From positions 1-22,463 of the IMG/VR virus record IMGVR_UViG_3300022542_000961: a stretch of 22,463 bases of DNA. The stretch is one strand, 5' to 3'. Each line of letters opens with the position of its first letter. The stretch's first letter is position 1. The position numbers and the translations under genes are program-made. Source of the DNA: a virus. Below the pieces are notes generated by a model. That model saw only the letters and a program-made list of their open reading frames with translations. It was not told where the DNA came from and did not search any database. This document shows, in pieces, positions 3,587 through 15,440 of this stretch.

Positions 3587-4171
3587 ATGGCAAAGGAACG
3601 ATTAAGCAGAAGTGACAAGGGTGTAACAGCACTTGTTCACTCTTTCATGAAAGACGGAATGGGACTTTCCCCAAAAACTATTAGTTTGGTAATGAAACGT
3701 ATTCGTGACCAAGGCGAACTTGCTCAAATGAAAAATCATATGCGTGGTTTAGGTGGTAGTACATATAAGCGTATCAACCAAGCTATGGATATGGCCGAAG
3801 AAGATGTGGCAAAAATGAGCAAAGGTAAGAAGGAAGACGACCAGGAAGAAAAAGCCGCTCCAGACAAAGCCGAAGCCAATGACGAAACTGAAGTAAAAGA
3901 AGGAAAATTTACATTCATGCATCACTTGCTTAACGAGCTTAATGTTCGTGACATTGCTGCAGATGAAGTTGAAACTGTTAGCAAAGAAGAGCGTATGAGA
4001 CGTGCTCGTATGGGAGACACTCAACTAAAACGTGAACGTACAAAAGAATTAACTGATCAGCAACGCAGCAAAGATCCTATTGATAAAAAGATTGTACAAC
4101 TTCGTCAACAAATTGCTAAACTCCAAAAAAGAAAGAAAGAAGCTGGTGGAGATACTGAGGGTACAGTATAA
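3587..4171 (+). CDS. Charged helical protein of unknown function
   Basis: A 194-residue protein with AGGGG eight bases before its ATG, ten bases after the previous stop. Residues 1-75 form a helical, fairly hydrophobic unit (GVTALVHSFMKDGMGLSPKT). Residues 80-110 are Lys/Glu-rich and probably disordered. Residues 108-130 contain FMHHLLNELNVRDIAADEVE, and the tail (135-188) is Arg/Lys-rich and helical, with a short coiled coil (KKIVQLRQQIAKLQKRKKE). I do not recognise a family. Its place between a scaffold-like gene and a highly basic small protein, all co-directional, suggests a shared late operon. A structural or assembly role is inference only. Its stop codon overlaps the next ATG by one base (TAATG). 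Confidence 0.75.
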   Translation: MAKERLSRSDKGVTALVHSFMKDGMGLSPKTISLVMKRIRDQGELAQMKNHMRGLGGSTYKRINQAMDMAEEDVAKMSKGKKEDDQEEKAAPDKAEANDETEVKEGKFTFMHHLLNELNVRDIAADEVETVSKEERMRRARMGDTQLKRERTKELTDQQRSKDPIDKKIVQLRQQIAKLQKRKKEAGGDTEGTV

Positions 4172-8339: not shown

Positions 8340-8627
8340 ATGAGTACTCTTCGTCCTTTATATGATCGTGTTATTATCAAACGCGATGAAGCAAAAGAAA
8401 CAACCGATAGTGGAATCATTATTGCTGGTGGTGGAGAAGAACCAACCACTGGTACTGTAATCGCTGTCGGTAGTGGTAAATTACTTGATGATGGTTCTAT
8501 TCGTCCAATGTCCGTTAAGGAAGGCGATAGAGTTATTGTAGCAGATGGTACTGGATTAGAACAAGAACACGATGGGGACTCATTACTTATTGTGTTTGAA
8601 CAAGATATAGTTGGTATTTTATCTTGA
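8340..8627 (+). CDS. GroES-like co-chaperonin
   Basis: A 95-residue protein, the usual length for GroES (about 95-97). The start LRPLYDRVIIKRDEA matches the GroES N-terminal strand, the segment ETTDSGIII corresponds to the mobile loop that docks on GroEL, and TTGTVIAVGSGKLLDDG, VKEGDRVIVADG and LLIVFEQDIVGIL complete the fold. It would cap host GroEL during folding of phage proteins, the job done by the diverged gp31 in T4 for the major capsid protein. AGGAG lies upstream, two bases after the previous stop. Its own stop overlaps the polymerase start. Unlike T4 gp31 it is plainly GroES-like and could have come from a host. Confidence 0.92.
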   Translation: MSTLRPLYDRVIIKRDEAKETTDSGIIIAGGGEEPTTGTVIAVGSGKLLDDGSIRPMSVKEGDRVIVADGTGLEQEHDGDSLLIVFEQDIVGILS

Positions 8628-11257
8628 GTTACATATCCGCAAAACGAAAAGGCGATGATGTAATAGTATGGGAGCGTGGAAAAGATGGTAGAGTAGAAAA
8701 AACCTACCAAGCTCCATATTACTTCTTTACTAAAGATGAAACTGGTCAAGATATCAGCATATTCGGTGACAAATTAACTCGCCACGATTTCAGAACCTCA
8801 AAAGAATTTAACCATGCTCGTTCAGAAATGGAAAGCTATGGTATGGAGTTGTTTGAGTCTGATATACCTCCTGAGATTCGTGTTCTTTCTGAATACTACT
8901 ATGGTAAACCTGCTCCTGTTCTTAATGTTACTTTTCTTGATATTGAAGTTGATTACAATAAGGATATTGGTTTTAGCTCTGTCGCTAATCCATACGCTCC
9001 AATCAACTCTATCGCAATGCACCATCAACATGAAAACCGTACTGTCGTGTATTGTGTTCCACCTGATGATTCTTGGACAGACCCAAGTCAATTTGACCAA
9101 GAACTTCACGACTTAGCAGAAATTGTTTTCTGTAAAGATGAAAAAGAATTATTATTATACATCATTGCTGAGATAGAAGATAGTGATGTTGTGTGTGGTT
9201 GGAATAGTGACTTCTTTGATATGCCGTATATTGCAAAACGTATTGAAATTGTTCTCGGTAAGAAATATTTTAGAATGTTATCTTTTCCTGGAGCTGGAAA
9301 TCCAAGGTACCGTGAAGTTGAAAAGTTTGGCAACATGCAAGAAACTATTGACTTACAAGGTCGCGTAAGTGTTGATTATCTTAACTTATTTCAAAAGTAT
9401 GAAATGGCTCAGAGACCTTCTTATAAATTAGAATCAGTTTCTGATGACGTTCTTCCAGATTTACCTAAGTTGCATTATGAAGGAACACTTCATGATTTAT
9501 ATCGTAAAGATTTCCAGCATTTTATCCGATACAACATACGAGATACAGAAATCCTAGTAGGATTTGAAGACGAGCTTGGTTATGTTGCACTGGCAAATGA
9601 AATGTATCACATCTCTGGTGGATTGTTTAAGCATGTAGGTGGTACATTAAAACTCGCTGAGCTTGCTATCAATAATAATTGTTGGCATAAATTAAACTTA
9701 CGAGTTCCTAATGTTCATGTACCAGAAACAACTGGATCTATCCAAGGTGCTTTCGTACTTATGCCACAAGTAGGATTACACGAATGGATAGGTTCTGTTG
9801 ATATCAACTCTCTATATCCGTCTGCCATCCGTTCTATTAATATCAGTCCTGAAACATTAATAGGTCAGTTTGTTGAAACCACAAGAGCATCAGAAGAGAT
9901 TGCAAAAGGCAGTTTCGTTAAACTTACTCTTGAGTATGAGAATGGTGATAGATTAGAAAAAACTGCTGATGAGTGGAGAGAAGTATTAAAAGATGACGTT
10001 TGTGCTGTTAGTGGGTATGGTACTGTATTCACTCAAAAGAAAAAAGGAATTATCCCAGCTATTCTTGAAGAATGGTACGCCATTCGTAAACAATTTCAAA
10101 AGCTAAAAGGACAGGCGTTGGATGATGGAGACAAACAGAAAGCAGCATATTATGATAGATTACAATATGTATATAAGATTAAACTGAATAGTCTATATGG
10201 TGCATTGAATAATGCATATTTCCGTTTTTATGATTTAAGAATGGGAGAAAGTACAACTGGTACTGGTCGTATGATTCTTGTTCACCAATGCGCTAAAGCA
10301 TGTGAATTGTTAGATGGTGAATATACTCTACCTGATATAAAGAGATACAAGTTAACAGATGGTACGTATGTTGGTTTAGATACTAAGAAGGCTCATGATG
10401 GAAGAATTCACTTTGGATATTCAGATAAGTGGTCAGTAGTATATGGTGATACTGATAGTTCATATTTTGTAACACATGCAGAGAATGAAGAACAATCTGT
10501 ATTAATTGCTGACAAGGTTGGACAACTAATTAGTGACTCATTCCCAGAATATATGAGAGAAACTTTCTTGTGCAATCCTGGATTTGATGACATTATTTTA
10601 ACTGGTCGTGAAATTGTTTCTGACCGTGGTATTTTTGTTGATAAAAAACGATACATCCTTCATGTTACTGATAATGAAGGTGAGAAAGTTGATAAGTTAA
10701 AAGTAATGGGTGTTGATACGAAGAAGACAACATTACCAGTAGCAGTTTCCAAGAGACTTAATTCGTTCGTGGAACGATTCCTTAAAGGTGAAGAGTGGGA
10801 TGTTATTGCTCAAGATATTGTAGATTATAAAGATGAACTAGAAAATGCTGATGATGTGATGACCATCGGTTTACCGAAAGGCGTAAAGAATGTAGAAAAG
10901 TATACTAAAGATTTAGAAATCTATGGTGTAGGACAAAGACTACCAGGTCATGTTGCAGCAAGTATACATTATAACTTAAATCTTGAAAAACATAACGATA
11001 AAGAAAGTATGCCAATTATTTCAGGAATGAAAATTAAAGTATTTTATCTTAAACAAAAGGTTGGACGGTTTAAGAGTATTGCATTACCTACCGATTTGGA
11101 AGTTGTTCCACAATGGTTTTTGGATGAGTTCGCTGTTGATATAGACGCTCACATTGAACGATTGGTTGATAAACCTCTTGGTAATATTATTAAAGCCATT
11201 GGCAAAGATGTTCCATCAAAACAAACAATGATAATTGATTCGTTATTAGATTTTTGA
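8624..11257 (+). CDS. 43: Family B DNA polymerase (T4 gp43-like)
   Basis: An 877-residue replicative polymerase with 3'-5' proofreading. Exo I: FLDIEVDYN (about 104-112). Exo II: WNSDFFDMPY (about 193). Exo III: YNIRDTEIL (about 303). Polymerase motif A: DINSLYPSAI (about 392), motif B: KLNSLYGAL (about 520), motif C: YGDTDSS (about 606). All catalytic aspartates are present, and the length is near T4 gp43 (898). The likely start is TTG at 8624, overlapping the co-chaperonin stop as TTGA, so translation is probably coupled; no good ribosome site is visible. The C-terminus IIDSLLDF is a short hydrophobic/acidic peptide like the clamp-binding tails of T4 and RB69 polymerases. The same peptide recurs after the double TGA stop (see 11258-11350). 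Confidence 0.95.
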   Translation: MSYISAKRKGDDVIVWERGKDGRVEKTYQAPYYFFTKDETGQDISIFGDKLTRHDFRTSKEFNHARSEMESYGMELFESDIPPEIRVLSEYYYGKPAPVLNVTFLDIEVDYNKDIGFSSVANPYAPINSIAMHHQHENRTVVYCVPPDDSWTDPSQFDQELHDLAEIVFCKDEKELLLYIIAEIEDSDVVCGWNSDFFDMPYIAKRIEIVLGKKYFRMLSFPGAGNPRYREVEKFGNMQETIDLQGRVSVDYLNLFQKYEMAQRPSYKLESVSDDVLPDLPKLHYEGTLHDLYRKDFQHFIRYNIRDTEILVGFEDELGYVALANEMYHISGGLFKHVGGTLKLAELAINNNCWHKLNLRVPNVHVPETTGSIQGAFVLMPQVGLHEWIGSVDINSLYPSAIRSINISPETLIGQFVETTRASEEIAKGSFVKLTLEYENGDRLEKTADEWREVLKDDVCAVSGYGTVFTQKKKGIIPAILEEWYAIRKQFQKLKGQALDDGDKQKAAYYDRLQYVYKIKLNSLYGALNNAYFRFYDLRMGESTTGTGRMILVHQCAKACELLDGEYTLPDIKRYKLTDGTYVGLDTKKAHDGRIHFGYSDKWSVVYGDTDSSYFVTHAENEEQSVLIADKVGQLISDSFPEYMRETFLCNPGFDDIILTGREIVSDRGIFVDKKRYILHVTDNEGEKVDKLKVMGVDTKKTTLPVAVSKRLNSFVERFLKGEEWDVIAQDIVDYKDELENADDVMTIGLPKGVKNVEKYTKDLEIYGVGQRLPGHVAASIHYNLNLEKHNDKESMPIISGMKIKVFYLKQKVGRFKSIALPTDLEVVPQWFLDEFAVDIDAHIERLVDKPLGNIIKAIGKDVPSKQTMIIDSLLDF

Positions 11258-11350
11258 TGAATATGGGGACAGGATTTGAAATACCCAAATGAAAAAGAAG
11301 AAAAGGCAGAGGGTCAGAAAGAGGTTGTTGATTCTTTACTGGATTTCTAG
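11258..11350 (+). other. In-frame extension after the polymerase stop, carrying a second clamp-binding-like peptide
   Basis: The polymerase ends with TGATGA. The same frame then stays open from 11261 to TAG at 11348-11350 and encodes 29 residues, ending KEVVDSLLDF, almost the same as the polymerase C-terminus (IIDSLLDF). Across DSLLDF the two DNA copies differ only by synonymous changes (TCG/TCT, TTA/CTG, TTT/TTC). TTG at 11276 with GGGG at 11265-11268 could start a 24-residue peptide; otherwise this is read-through or a relic of an older, longer polymerase tail. The last codons overlap the -35 box of the clamp promoter. Whether it is translated is unknown. Confidence 0.5.
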
Positions 11351-11356
11351 TATAAT
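11328..11356 (+). promoter_or_regulatory. sigma70-type promoter of the clamp operon
   Basis: TTGATT (11328-11333), 17 bases, TATAAT (11351-11356), 24 bases before the clamp ATG at 11380. This is the same distance to the start codon as for the promoter at 208-236. The -35 lies inside the coding-like DSLLDF repeat. Confidence 0.7.
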
Positions 11357-11379
11357 AAAAGAAAAATAAGGATAATAAA

Positions 11380-12084
11380 ATGAAACTTACCACAGATGAA
11401 ATAATCTATATTCAAAAAGTTGTTAAAACAGCACAAATGGTTGATATTGATAATATAATTATTGAGCCAAACCTTGTACGAGCAATTGATGACGACAAGA
11501 CAGTTGTACTATTCCAAGACAGTGATGTGCCTGATATGGCATTTGGTTCAATTGGATTAAACCGTATTAGTGTATTCATGTCACGATTAGATATCGCAAA
11601 GACTCAAGAAGGATTTACCATTGAATTAGATAATACAAATGATAGTGAATATGCAAGAGCATTAAATATGAAAGCCAAAGGTGTTAAAATTGATTATCGT
11701 TGTGCGAATCCATCAACTATTCAAGCACCACGACAAGTTAATGACGTACTTAAATATCGTGTTCCATTGAATGCAGAAGCAGTTGTCATGTTGCAAAAAG
11801 GACAATCAGCAATGAGTGCTGACACCGTTACCATCATCAGTAATAAGAATGGTGTATCATTTGAGATCGTTGACATCAATAGTGATATTTTTTCTTACAC
11901 CTTTACAGATAAGGTAGAGACATTGTCTGATAGCAATGATATAAATTTTGCTCATCGCTATCCTATTAAAACATTACTTCCTTTATTCAAGCAGAACCCT
12001 GAGGGATATTTTTCTGTTGGACAAAAAGGTATTCTAAGTATTTCTGTTAACGGATTGAACTTATTCGTTCTACCGCAGGTATAA
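11380..12084 (+). CDS. 45: DNA polymerase sliding clamp (T4 gp45-like)
   Basis: A 234-residue protein; T4 gp45 has 228. The beginning (MKLTTDEIIYIQKVVKTAQM) and overall run of two similar alpha/beta clamp domains (boundary near residue 120), ending GILSISVNGLNLFVLPQ, fit the trimeric gp45 family, which is poorly conserved but has this length and ending. The clamp holds the polymerase on DNA and, in T4, also activates late transcription through the C-terminal tails of gp33 and gp55. Position directly after the polymerase and before an RNase H-like exonuclease supports the call. AAGGA precedes the ATG. No clamp-loader genes are in the window. Confidence 0.8.
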   Translation: MKLTTDEIIYIQKVVKTAQMVDIDNIIIEPNLVRAIDDDKTVVLFQDSDVPDMAFGSIGLNRISVFMSRLDIAKTQEGFTIELDNTNDSEYARALNMKAKGVKIDYRCANPSTIQAPRQVNDVLKYRVPLNAEAVVMLQKGQSAMSADTVTIISNKNGVSFEIVDINSDIFSYTFTDKVETLSDSNDINFAHRYPIKTLLPLFKQNPEGYFSVGQKGILSISVNGLNLFVLPQV

Positions 12085-13806: not shown

Positions 13807-14100
13807 ATGCCAGCATTATGCAGAATAGGCGATCCAATAAGTTGTGGTGATGTGATGGCGAATGGTAGCGGAAACGTGTTTTCCAATGGTATTCCCGTGA
13901 CAAGAATTAATGTTGATAACACTGCTGGGCATTGTTACAATCCAACACCAATTGCACGTGGATCCAAAAACGTATTCATTAATAATATTCCTGTCGCACG
14001 AGTTGATGATCCAATCGTTGATCACACTTGTAGTCCTATACCTGCCACACATGGTGGAGCAATCGCTAATGGATCTCCGGACGTATTCGCTAACTCATGA
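13807..14100 (+). CDS. PAAR-domain spike-tip protein (T4 gp5.4-like)
   Basis: A 97-residue protein with AAGGAG nine bases before the ATG. It has the PAAR features: start PALCRIGDPISCGDVMANGS, repeated V-F-x-N-x-I-P-V-A/T-R units (VFSNGIPVTRI, VFINNIPVARV), conserved HCYNP and DHTC histidine-cysteine pairs that could bind metal in the cone tip, and the ending GSPDVFANS. PAAR proteins sharpen the end of the membrane-piercing spike of contractile phage tails and type VI systems. It is driven by the divergent late promoter. Its stop overlaps the next start as ATGA, coupling it to the fibrinogen-domain protein. Confidence 0.9.
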   Translation: MPALCRIGDPISCGDVMANGSGNVFSNGIPVTRINVDNTAGHCYNPTPIARGSKNVFINNIPVARVDDPIVDHTCSPIPATHGGAIANGSPDVFANS

Positions 14101-15440
14101 GTTGTACACCACCATACAATTATAGACCAACAATGCCACCAGTAGCAGATTGTTCAGCTCCTACATTTGCTGAGCATCGCTCACGTCTATTTGCTGGGGG
14201 GACATACTTTAGAAGTATTGAACAAGGTCCACAATGGAATGATATATCTATTGAAGTTGAACAAATTGGTAGCCCAATCACATATGATTTAACAGTTAGT
14301 TACCAAGGTATAGTAAAAGAAACATATAATGTTACACAAGTTCCAGATGGTGGAGGTGGATGTAATATAAGTGGAATAGATTTATTGCGCACTGCTATTA
14401 ATGGTATAAGCTCATATATTGAAATGTATCAACGAGGAGGAGATTTCATATTTGATAGTGGTGGCACCGATGATGATTGTCTTTCAATTTTTAATGAAAC
14501 ATATATGAGTGGTGGCAGTGGAAGTCCAGTAGATGCTTCTGAGCTGACAAAGATACATACTGGTCATGAGCGTACAATGATTATCATTAGTACTACTGAA
14601 AGACAAAATGGAACACCAACTAACCCTCCAGCAGAAAGACACGTACAACAATGGGGTGGATCTAATTGGATACCATATCAAAATTTTGTTCCTGGTGAAT
14701 GTCCTTCAACAACATTGATTGGTGTTCCTTATGTTGTTGATGTTGTCATCGAAGATGAACCAGAAATAATTACTATAGTTATTGATGGTGCATCAAGAAG
14801 ATGGAGTGATGGAACATATGCTGCTAACGCTAATGAGTATCTTAATCCTCCTATTGGTTATTCTTATGAAGGGGATGTTGGTGATGGTTTATATGCTATT
14901 GATCCAGATCAACTTGGTACTCCATTTGATGTATACGCTGATATGACTAATGATGGTGGTGGTTGGATGAGAGTAATAGATGGACCATCAACAACATTAG
15001 GTGAGTTAGATGTATTTGGTGATGTTTCAATTATAACCTCAACATATTATTCTGATCCTACTTATGGTGTTGGGTGGGGAGATAATTCTGATCTTGCCAA
15101 TTGGTCACTTGATGCAACTAGATATACAATAGACGCTGTAGATTTTAGTGAAATGCGTGTAACGCTTACAGGATTTTATGCAGGTGGAATGGGAAGAATA
15201 CGAGTAATGACATCGTCAGGTGTGGTTACAACACATATTAATGATGCATGGGCAATTGACTCTTCCGGACAATCATATAGAGTAAACGGTGTGGATATAT
15301 TCTATAAACAACTAATAGATGTTGTTAACCAACCAGAAATCTTAATTGGATTCGACCGAAATTCACAAATTAGTATGACAGGATATTCACCATCATATGT
15401 ATATACAAAACGTTACATTAACCAACTATGGTTACGATGA
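14097..15440 (+). CDS. Virion adhesin with C-terminal fibrinogen-like domain
   Basis: A 447-residue protein starting inside the PAAR stop (ATGA). Residues 1-30 are Pro/Cys-containing (MSCTPPYNYRPTMPPVADCS); residues 30-250 are beta-rich, Gly/Ser-rich and not recognised. From about residue 255 the sequence matches a fibrinogen-related (FReD-like) fold start: GDGLYAIDPDQ (about 262), GTPFDVYADMTNDGGGWMRV (about 275-294), with a later aromatic and Gly-rich part to FDRNSQISM and the C-terminus. Fibrinogen-related domains bind sugars or acetylated groups in animals and occur sporadically in bacteria and viruses. Location and coupling to the spike tip suggest a baseplate or receptor-binding protein. 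GSP tripeptides occur here twice. The typical disulphide cysteine pair is not evident in the domain (for example D-V-Y-A-D instead of D-V-Y-C-D). Confidence 0.75.
   Translation: MSCTPPYNYRPTMPPVADCSAPTFAEHRSRLFAGGTYFRSIEQGPQWNDISIEVEQIGSPITYDLTVSYQGIVKETYNVTQVPDGGGGCNISGIDLLRTAINGISSYIEMYQRGGDFIFDSGGTDDDCLSIFNETYMSGGSGSPVDASELTKIHTGHERTMIIISTTERQNGTPTNPPAERHVQQWGGSNWIPYQNFVPGECPSTTLIGVPYVVDVVIEDEPEIITIVIDGASRRWSDGTYAANANEYLNPPIGYSYEGDVGDGLYAIDPDQLGTPFDVYADMTNDGGGWMRVIDGPSTTLGELDVFGDVSIITSTYYSDPTYGVGWGDNSDLANWSLDATRYTIDAVDFSEMRVTLTGFYAGGMGRIRVMTSSGVVTTHINDAWAIDSSGQSYRVNGVDIFYKQLIDVVNQPEILIGFDRNSQISMTGYSPSYVYTKRYINQLWLR

Follow-up and report, generated by a model that had tools for sequence, protein, structure and literature searches.

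What lies between the DNA polymerase and sliding clamp genes of the virus in IMG/VR record IMGVR_UViG_3300022542_000961, and why is the C-terminal peptide of the polymerase spelled a second time there? The analysed DNA covers positions 1–22,463 of the record, and this whole stretch is further referred to as the window; the features of the polymerase–clamp junction described below are on the plus strand. The region 11257–11350 is very probably a decayed gene of the DUF488-N3a family, which once stood between the polymerase and clamp genes and whose 3'-end has probably been kept as the predicted promoter of the clamp gene.

The polymerase–clamp junction

The family B (gp43-like) DNA polymerase (8624–11257, 877 aa; PHROG 262, E 3.6e-169; Pfam DNA_pol_B and DNA_pol_B_exo1) ends with IIDSLLDF. 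The last six residues, DSLLDF (11237–11254), form a clamp-binding-like tail with the same hydrophobic/acidic pattern as the polymerase tails of the relatives. The stop codon TGA (11255–11257) is followed by a second TGA (11258–11260), after which the polymerase frame continues for 29 sense codons (11261–11347) up to KEVVDSLLDF and TAG (11348–11350). The start codon of the clamp gene at position 11380 lies 29 nt past this TAG. The clamp (11380–12084, 234 aa; PHROG 223, E 1.2e-5) has a PCNA/gp45 fold: its AlphaFold model (predicted local distance difference test, pLDDT, 93) was matched by Foldseek to PCNA (E 1.3e-9) and to T4 gp45 (6drt, E 7.4e-9). The codons for DSLLDF are GAT TCG TTA TTA GAT TTT in the polymerase and GAT TCT TTA CTG GAT TTC in the second copy. 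An earlier note on this DNA had pointed out the in-frame repeat with its silent differences and its resemblance to a clamp-binding tail; sequence and translation agree on the former, and the latter follows from the hydrophobic/acidic pattern shared with cognate polymerase tails.

The remnant of a DUF488-N3a gene

In the closest relative, phage contig L001 (polymerase 90% identical in protein), the gene order is polymerase, a 101-aa open reading frame (ORF), a 144-aa ORF and clamp. The 144-aa ORF, which starts with MNMNPKN and ends with TGFIIPEWKNEKEEKAEGQKVVVDSLLNF and a stop codon, is a DUF488-N3a gene occupying the polymerase–clamp interval (C-terminal end NEKEEKAEGQKVVVDSLLNF). The 101-aa ORF (L001:6647–6952), inserted between the polymerase and DUF488 genes, has no Pfam match.

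The remnant in the window and the leader behind it align to the end of the L001 DUF488 gene and its leader, with an 8-nt gap and one large gap. An ATG at 11257–11259, overlooked in the earlier note, overlaps the polymerase stop codon (TGATG) and opens the frame MNMGTGFEIPK, closed by a stop codon. Its first three codons (MNM, 11257–11265) are the start of the decayed gene; the intact DUF488 genes of L006 and L008 begin at the same overlap with the polymerase stop codon. Approximately 333 nt (111 codons by L001, calculated by subtraction from the L001 gene) are absent after codon 3, up to the GGGACAGG stretch. The next block, GGGACAGGATTTGAAATACCC (11266–11286), is aligned with GAAACAGGGTTTATAATACCC of the L001 protein in the DNA alignment and the ORFs. 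The 8-nt gap follows the sequence ATACCC, and the remaining 3'-end, NEKEEKAEGQKEVVDSLLDF with its stop codon (11288–11350), is identical to the end of the L001 gene in 54 of 60 nt. Hence, three N-terminal and about 27 C-terminal codons survive; the DUF488-N3a domain itself is deleted. Eight nucleotides do not make up whole codons, so this gap shifts the tail away from the frame of its own start and into that of the polymerase. The open run there arose by accident through the deletions.

These observations bear on the explanations proposed in the earlier note. One of them was read-through of TGATGA, yielding a polymerase with two clamp-binding tails, and the 29-codon open frame ending in a tail peptide has just the required form. 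However, the two stops stand in tandem, and the agreement of frames stems from the 8-nt deletion. Moreover, what comes after the polymerase stop codon in the relatives is the clamp leader, a DUF488 gene in a different frame or some other gene, and an in-frame extension was seen in no relative examined; we give read-through hardly any credence. A true tandem duplication of the polymerase 3'-end would account for the six identical tail residues, but the 39 nt preceding the second tail match DUF488 and not the polymerase, four substitutions separate the 18 nt of the tail codons, and the same tail is carried by intact DUF488 genes. Duplication is thus very improbable, and the second copy is the end of a different protein. 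The suggestion of a relic was correct insofar as the remnant is decayed, the source being the DUF488-N3a C-terminus, intact in relatives, and not an older polymerase tail.

The remnant might still be translated as a short clamp-modulating peptide, either from TTG 11276 (the free 24-residue peptide of the earlier note) or through a +1 frameshift at CCC-AAA-TGA, which would fuse MNMGTGFEIPK with EKEEKAEGQKEVVDSLLDF into a product of about 30 aa. On the 3' side the frame remains open, and three synonymous and two non-synonymous codons differ from L001; judged by the alignment with L001, the first deletion preserves the frame, and the ATG is still coupled to the polymerase stop codon through TGATG. 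On the other hand, the frame of the natural start is broken by the 8-nt deletion, no clear Shine–Dalgarno sequence is seen 5' of TTG 11276, the remnant is conserved to the degree of ordinary coding DNA between the window phage and L001, and no relative examined keeps such a mini-gene or the ORF from the TTG. Translation of the remnant therefore seems improbable. The claim that the peptide, and not just the DNA, has been kept holds for the DUF488 protein in relatives and fails for the remnant in the window.

Intact DUF488-N3a genes in related phages

DUF488 proteins are widespread and uncharacterised. An intact gene of this kind is located just 5' of the clamp gene in about ten related phage contigs (L001/L009, L006 and others), directly after the polymerase gene where that end is visible. 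The intact proteins are 125–144 aa long, and 12 of 12 match Pfam DUF488-N3a (PF22751, Active DUF488-N3 subclade) with E ≤ 0.001; the bit scores are 31.0 for L001, 36.8 for L006 and 33.3 for L008, the cutoff being 27. The CYE-CHR motif is conserved in these 12 proteins, with TSNYAR and LCYE-P-FCHR invariant. The AlphaFold model of an intact protein has a pLDDT of 89, the C-terminal helix 126–142, which holds most of the tail, being less certain. A PDB profile search and a Foldseek search with the model yielded no significant match to a solved fold, only weak matches to S-adenosylmethionine (SAM) methyltransferase folds (E ≥ 0.06); therefore we do not propose a catalytic activity.

Single-sequence searches with the DUF488 and clamp proteins reached only the L001/L009 contigs, and alignments reached further. 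A search of the phages collection at the DNA level returned no match. Among the nearest named phages by polymerase, no DUF488 match was found in Xanthomonas phage XacN1, Stenotrophomonas phage CM1 and Sinorhizobium phage Phosso. In L010 a DUF488-N3a gene (9408–9806) lies away from the clamp, beside an RNase H-like gene, and its product ends with the faintly clamp-binding-like ALINDIFGVK. After the polymerase gene, where DUF488 would stand, L010 (6590–7636), L012 and L014 have a gene that by eye is D-alanyl-D-alanine-carboxypeptidase-like.

The clamp-binding-like tail

Most intact DUF488 proteins end with the pattern V-D-x-[LI]-[LIF]-x-F. The tails include VDSLLNF, VDSIIEF, VDNLFDF, VDDLLDF, VDNLLQF, VDSLLAF, VDSILDF, VVSLLEF and VDDLLVF, short hydrophobic/acidic segments like those of the cognate polymerases, and looser forms occur in L040, L061 and L062. 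The L061 protein ends with LVDTLLDFE (clamp gene at 4001), with an extra residue after DF; TTGACA is still in place, and TAATCT is found 17 nt downstream. In L006 both the polymerase and the DUF488 protein end with VDDLLDF, and their 21 nt show seven silent differences. Here the silent-only pattern recurs independently and more cleanly, between two intact genes. When eight whole records were scanned for the tail pattern, the matches were the tails of the polymerase and DUF488 proteins and a single VDQILYF, which closes a short frame and which we took as chance.

In phage T4, the clamp gp45 is bound by gp43, gp55 and gp33 through hydrophobic/acidic motifs at their C-termini (PMC2988020, PMC7892883), and these tails are interchangeable (PMC2988020). 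The proteins described here resemble the T4 ones in the type of tail, judged by sequence, and in the PCNA/gp45 fold of the clamp. They differ in that a DUF488-N3a protein, encoded beside the clamp, carries the second tail, and T4 gp43 itself ends with ASLDFLFG, having only the general pattern in common with the tails considered here. The distant phage DUF488 homologues phiKZ gp151 and SPN3US_0120 lack a tail of this kind at their ends, unlike most of the relatives studied here. No report of clamp binding by a DUF488 protein was found in the literature searched. From the similarity to polymerase tails we infer that the DUF488 protein is anchored to the sliding clamp by its tail.

A putative clamp promoter within the tail codons

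The V-D-S codons of the tail in the window contain the −35-like hexamer TTGATT (11328–11333), and the −10-like hexamer TATAAT (11351–11356) directly follows the TAG codon after a 17-nt spacer. This is the only promoter-like site on the plus strand in 10900–11700. The earlier note had already assigned the −35 box of the clamp promoter to the second copy; the case for this predicted promoter comes from the geometry in relatives, because the site in the window taken alone does not exceed shuffled sequences. In the relatives, with positions anchored at the stop codon, TTGACA (as in L033, L034, L035, L037 and L043) or a close variant ends 17 nt before the first base past that codon, and TATAAT or a hexamer with one change stands directly after the codon. 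The set of 19 clamp-upstream genes was gathered mainly via the clamp gene, with the window and L013 added. The null distribution came from redrawing the codons by local usage without altering the protein, together with a downstream hexamer sampled from the local leader. The fixed geometry with at least 10 of 12 matching positions was observed in 11 of the 19 genes against a null mean of 0.33 and a maximum of 4 (20,000 draws), a comparison that does not come from an independent sample, most of the 19 loci having also helped to reveal the pattern. Across the relatives, σ70-type hexamers with a 16–18 nt spacer thus occur above chance. No polymerase tail preceding DUF488 contains the site; where a polymerase tail lies directly 5' of the clamp, the site is present in L002 and L013 and absent in L059 and L072. 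We infer that the tail codons double as the clamp promoter, with activity predicted from the hexamers and their spacing.

Promoters inside the 3'-end of an upstream gene likewise have the −35 box in codons and the −10 box just past the stop codon. In the present case the −35 box lies in codons for a clamp-binding-like tail, the downstream gene encodes the clamp, and the register is fixed in many divergent phages. Could the tail, then, be a mere by-product of a gene-end promoter and not a clamp-binding motif? The promoter does fix GTTGAC, and hence V-D, at one place. Yet the 17-nt spacer is free in sequence, and two hydrophobic residues and the final F are present in nearly all tails; the same peptide pattern is found in polymerase tails that do not serve as promoters. 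In addition, the promoter is missing from L038 and L054 although the tail is present, so peptide and promoter are separable, the tail being maintained at the protein level. We consider the by-product explanation unlikely.

Several observations weigh against the origin and function proposed here. The window promoter matches 10 of 12 positions, and locally such sites are not above shuffles (two found in all, 4.5 expected). Selection on the remnant is undetectable: six or fewer differences per 60 nt are seen in 34% of equal-length coding windows compared between the window and L001. The clamp-adjacent DUF488 genes of L041, L042 and L066 have neither a clear tail nor the promoter. Finally, the window is one metagenome contig, in which a local assembly error is possible.

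Two proposed routes of gene loss

We propose that an ancestral DUF488-N3a gene stood between the polymerase and clamp genes and had a tail mimicking the clamp-binding tail of the polymerase. In the tail DNA, TTGAC(A/T) would serve as the −35 box and TATAAT as the −10 box, separated by the 17 nt of the remaining tail codons and TAG. In the window, two deletions removed most of the gene and broke its frame; the 3'-end was most likely retained because it drives the clamp gene, selection for the promoter being presumed.

The 92-kb record of L002 has no DUF488 gene, and the end of its polymerase gene (L002:6499–6560) is a mosaic. Of the 39 nt leading up to the tail, 30 agree with the window polymerase and 12 with the remnant, whereas in the 24-nt tail 22 agree with the remnant and 16 with the window polymerase; the leader matches the remnant at 10 of 12. 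In L002, the DUF488 gene appears to have dropped out when the two tail-coding repeats recombined. Internal deletion in the window and tail-repeat recombination in L002 would be two routes that both leave a promoter before the clamp gene.

On balance, we lean towards a broader scheme in which one group of large phages attaches a DUF488-N3a protein, probably an enzyme that works on new DNA or fork nucleotides, to the clamp via a polymerase-mimicking tail whose codons are also the clamp promoter; losses of the gene would leave the tail DNA in place (the window) or pass it to the polymerase (L002). A polymerase-like tail encoded beside the polymerase and clamp genes would be a direct, testable clue to a replication-fork role of this DUF488 branch. 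The overlap of an interaction motif and a promoter would be a clear case of dual-coding constraint. It would also explain how a peptide-like sequence may outlive its gene without being translated, and calls for caution in reading short conserved ORFs.

Neighbouring genes

A gene for a GroES-like co-chaperonin (8340–8627; PHROG 3188, E 3.9e-24) is located directly 5' of the polymerase gene in the window. Further downstream, a predicted protein (14097–15440) has a stretch that by eye is fibrinogen-C-like (GDGLYAIDPDQLG...GGGWMRV) and adjoins a PAAR-like protein (13807–14100); the two are possibly an adhesin and a spike.
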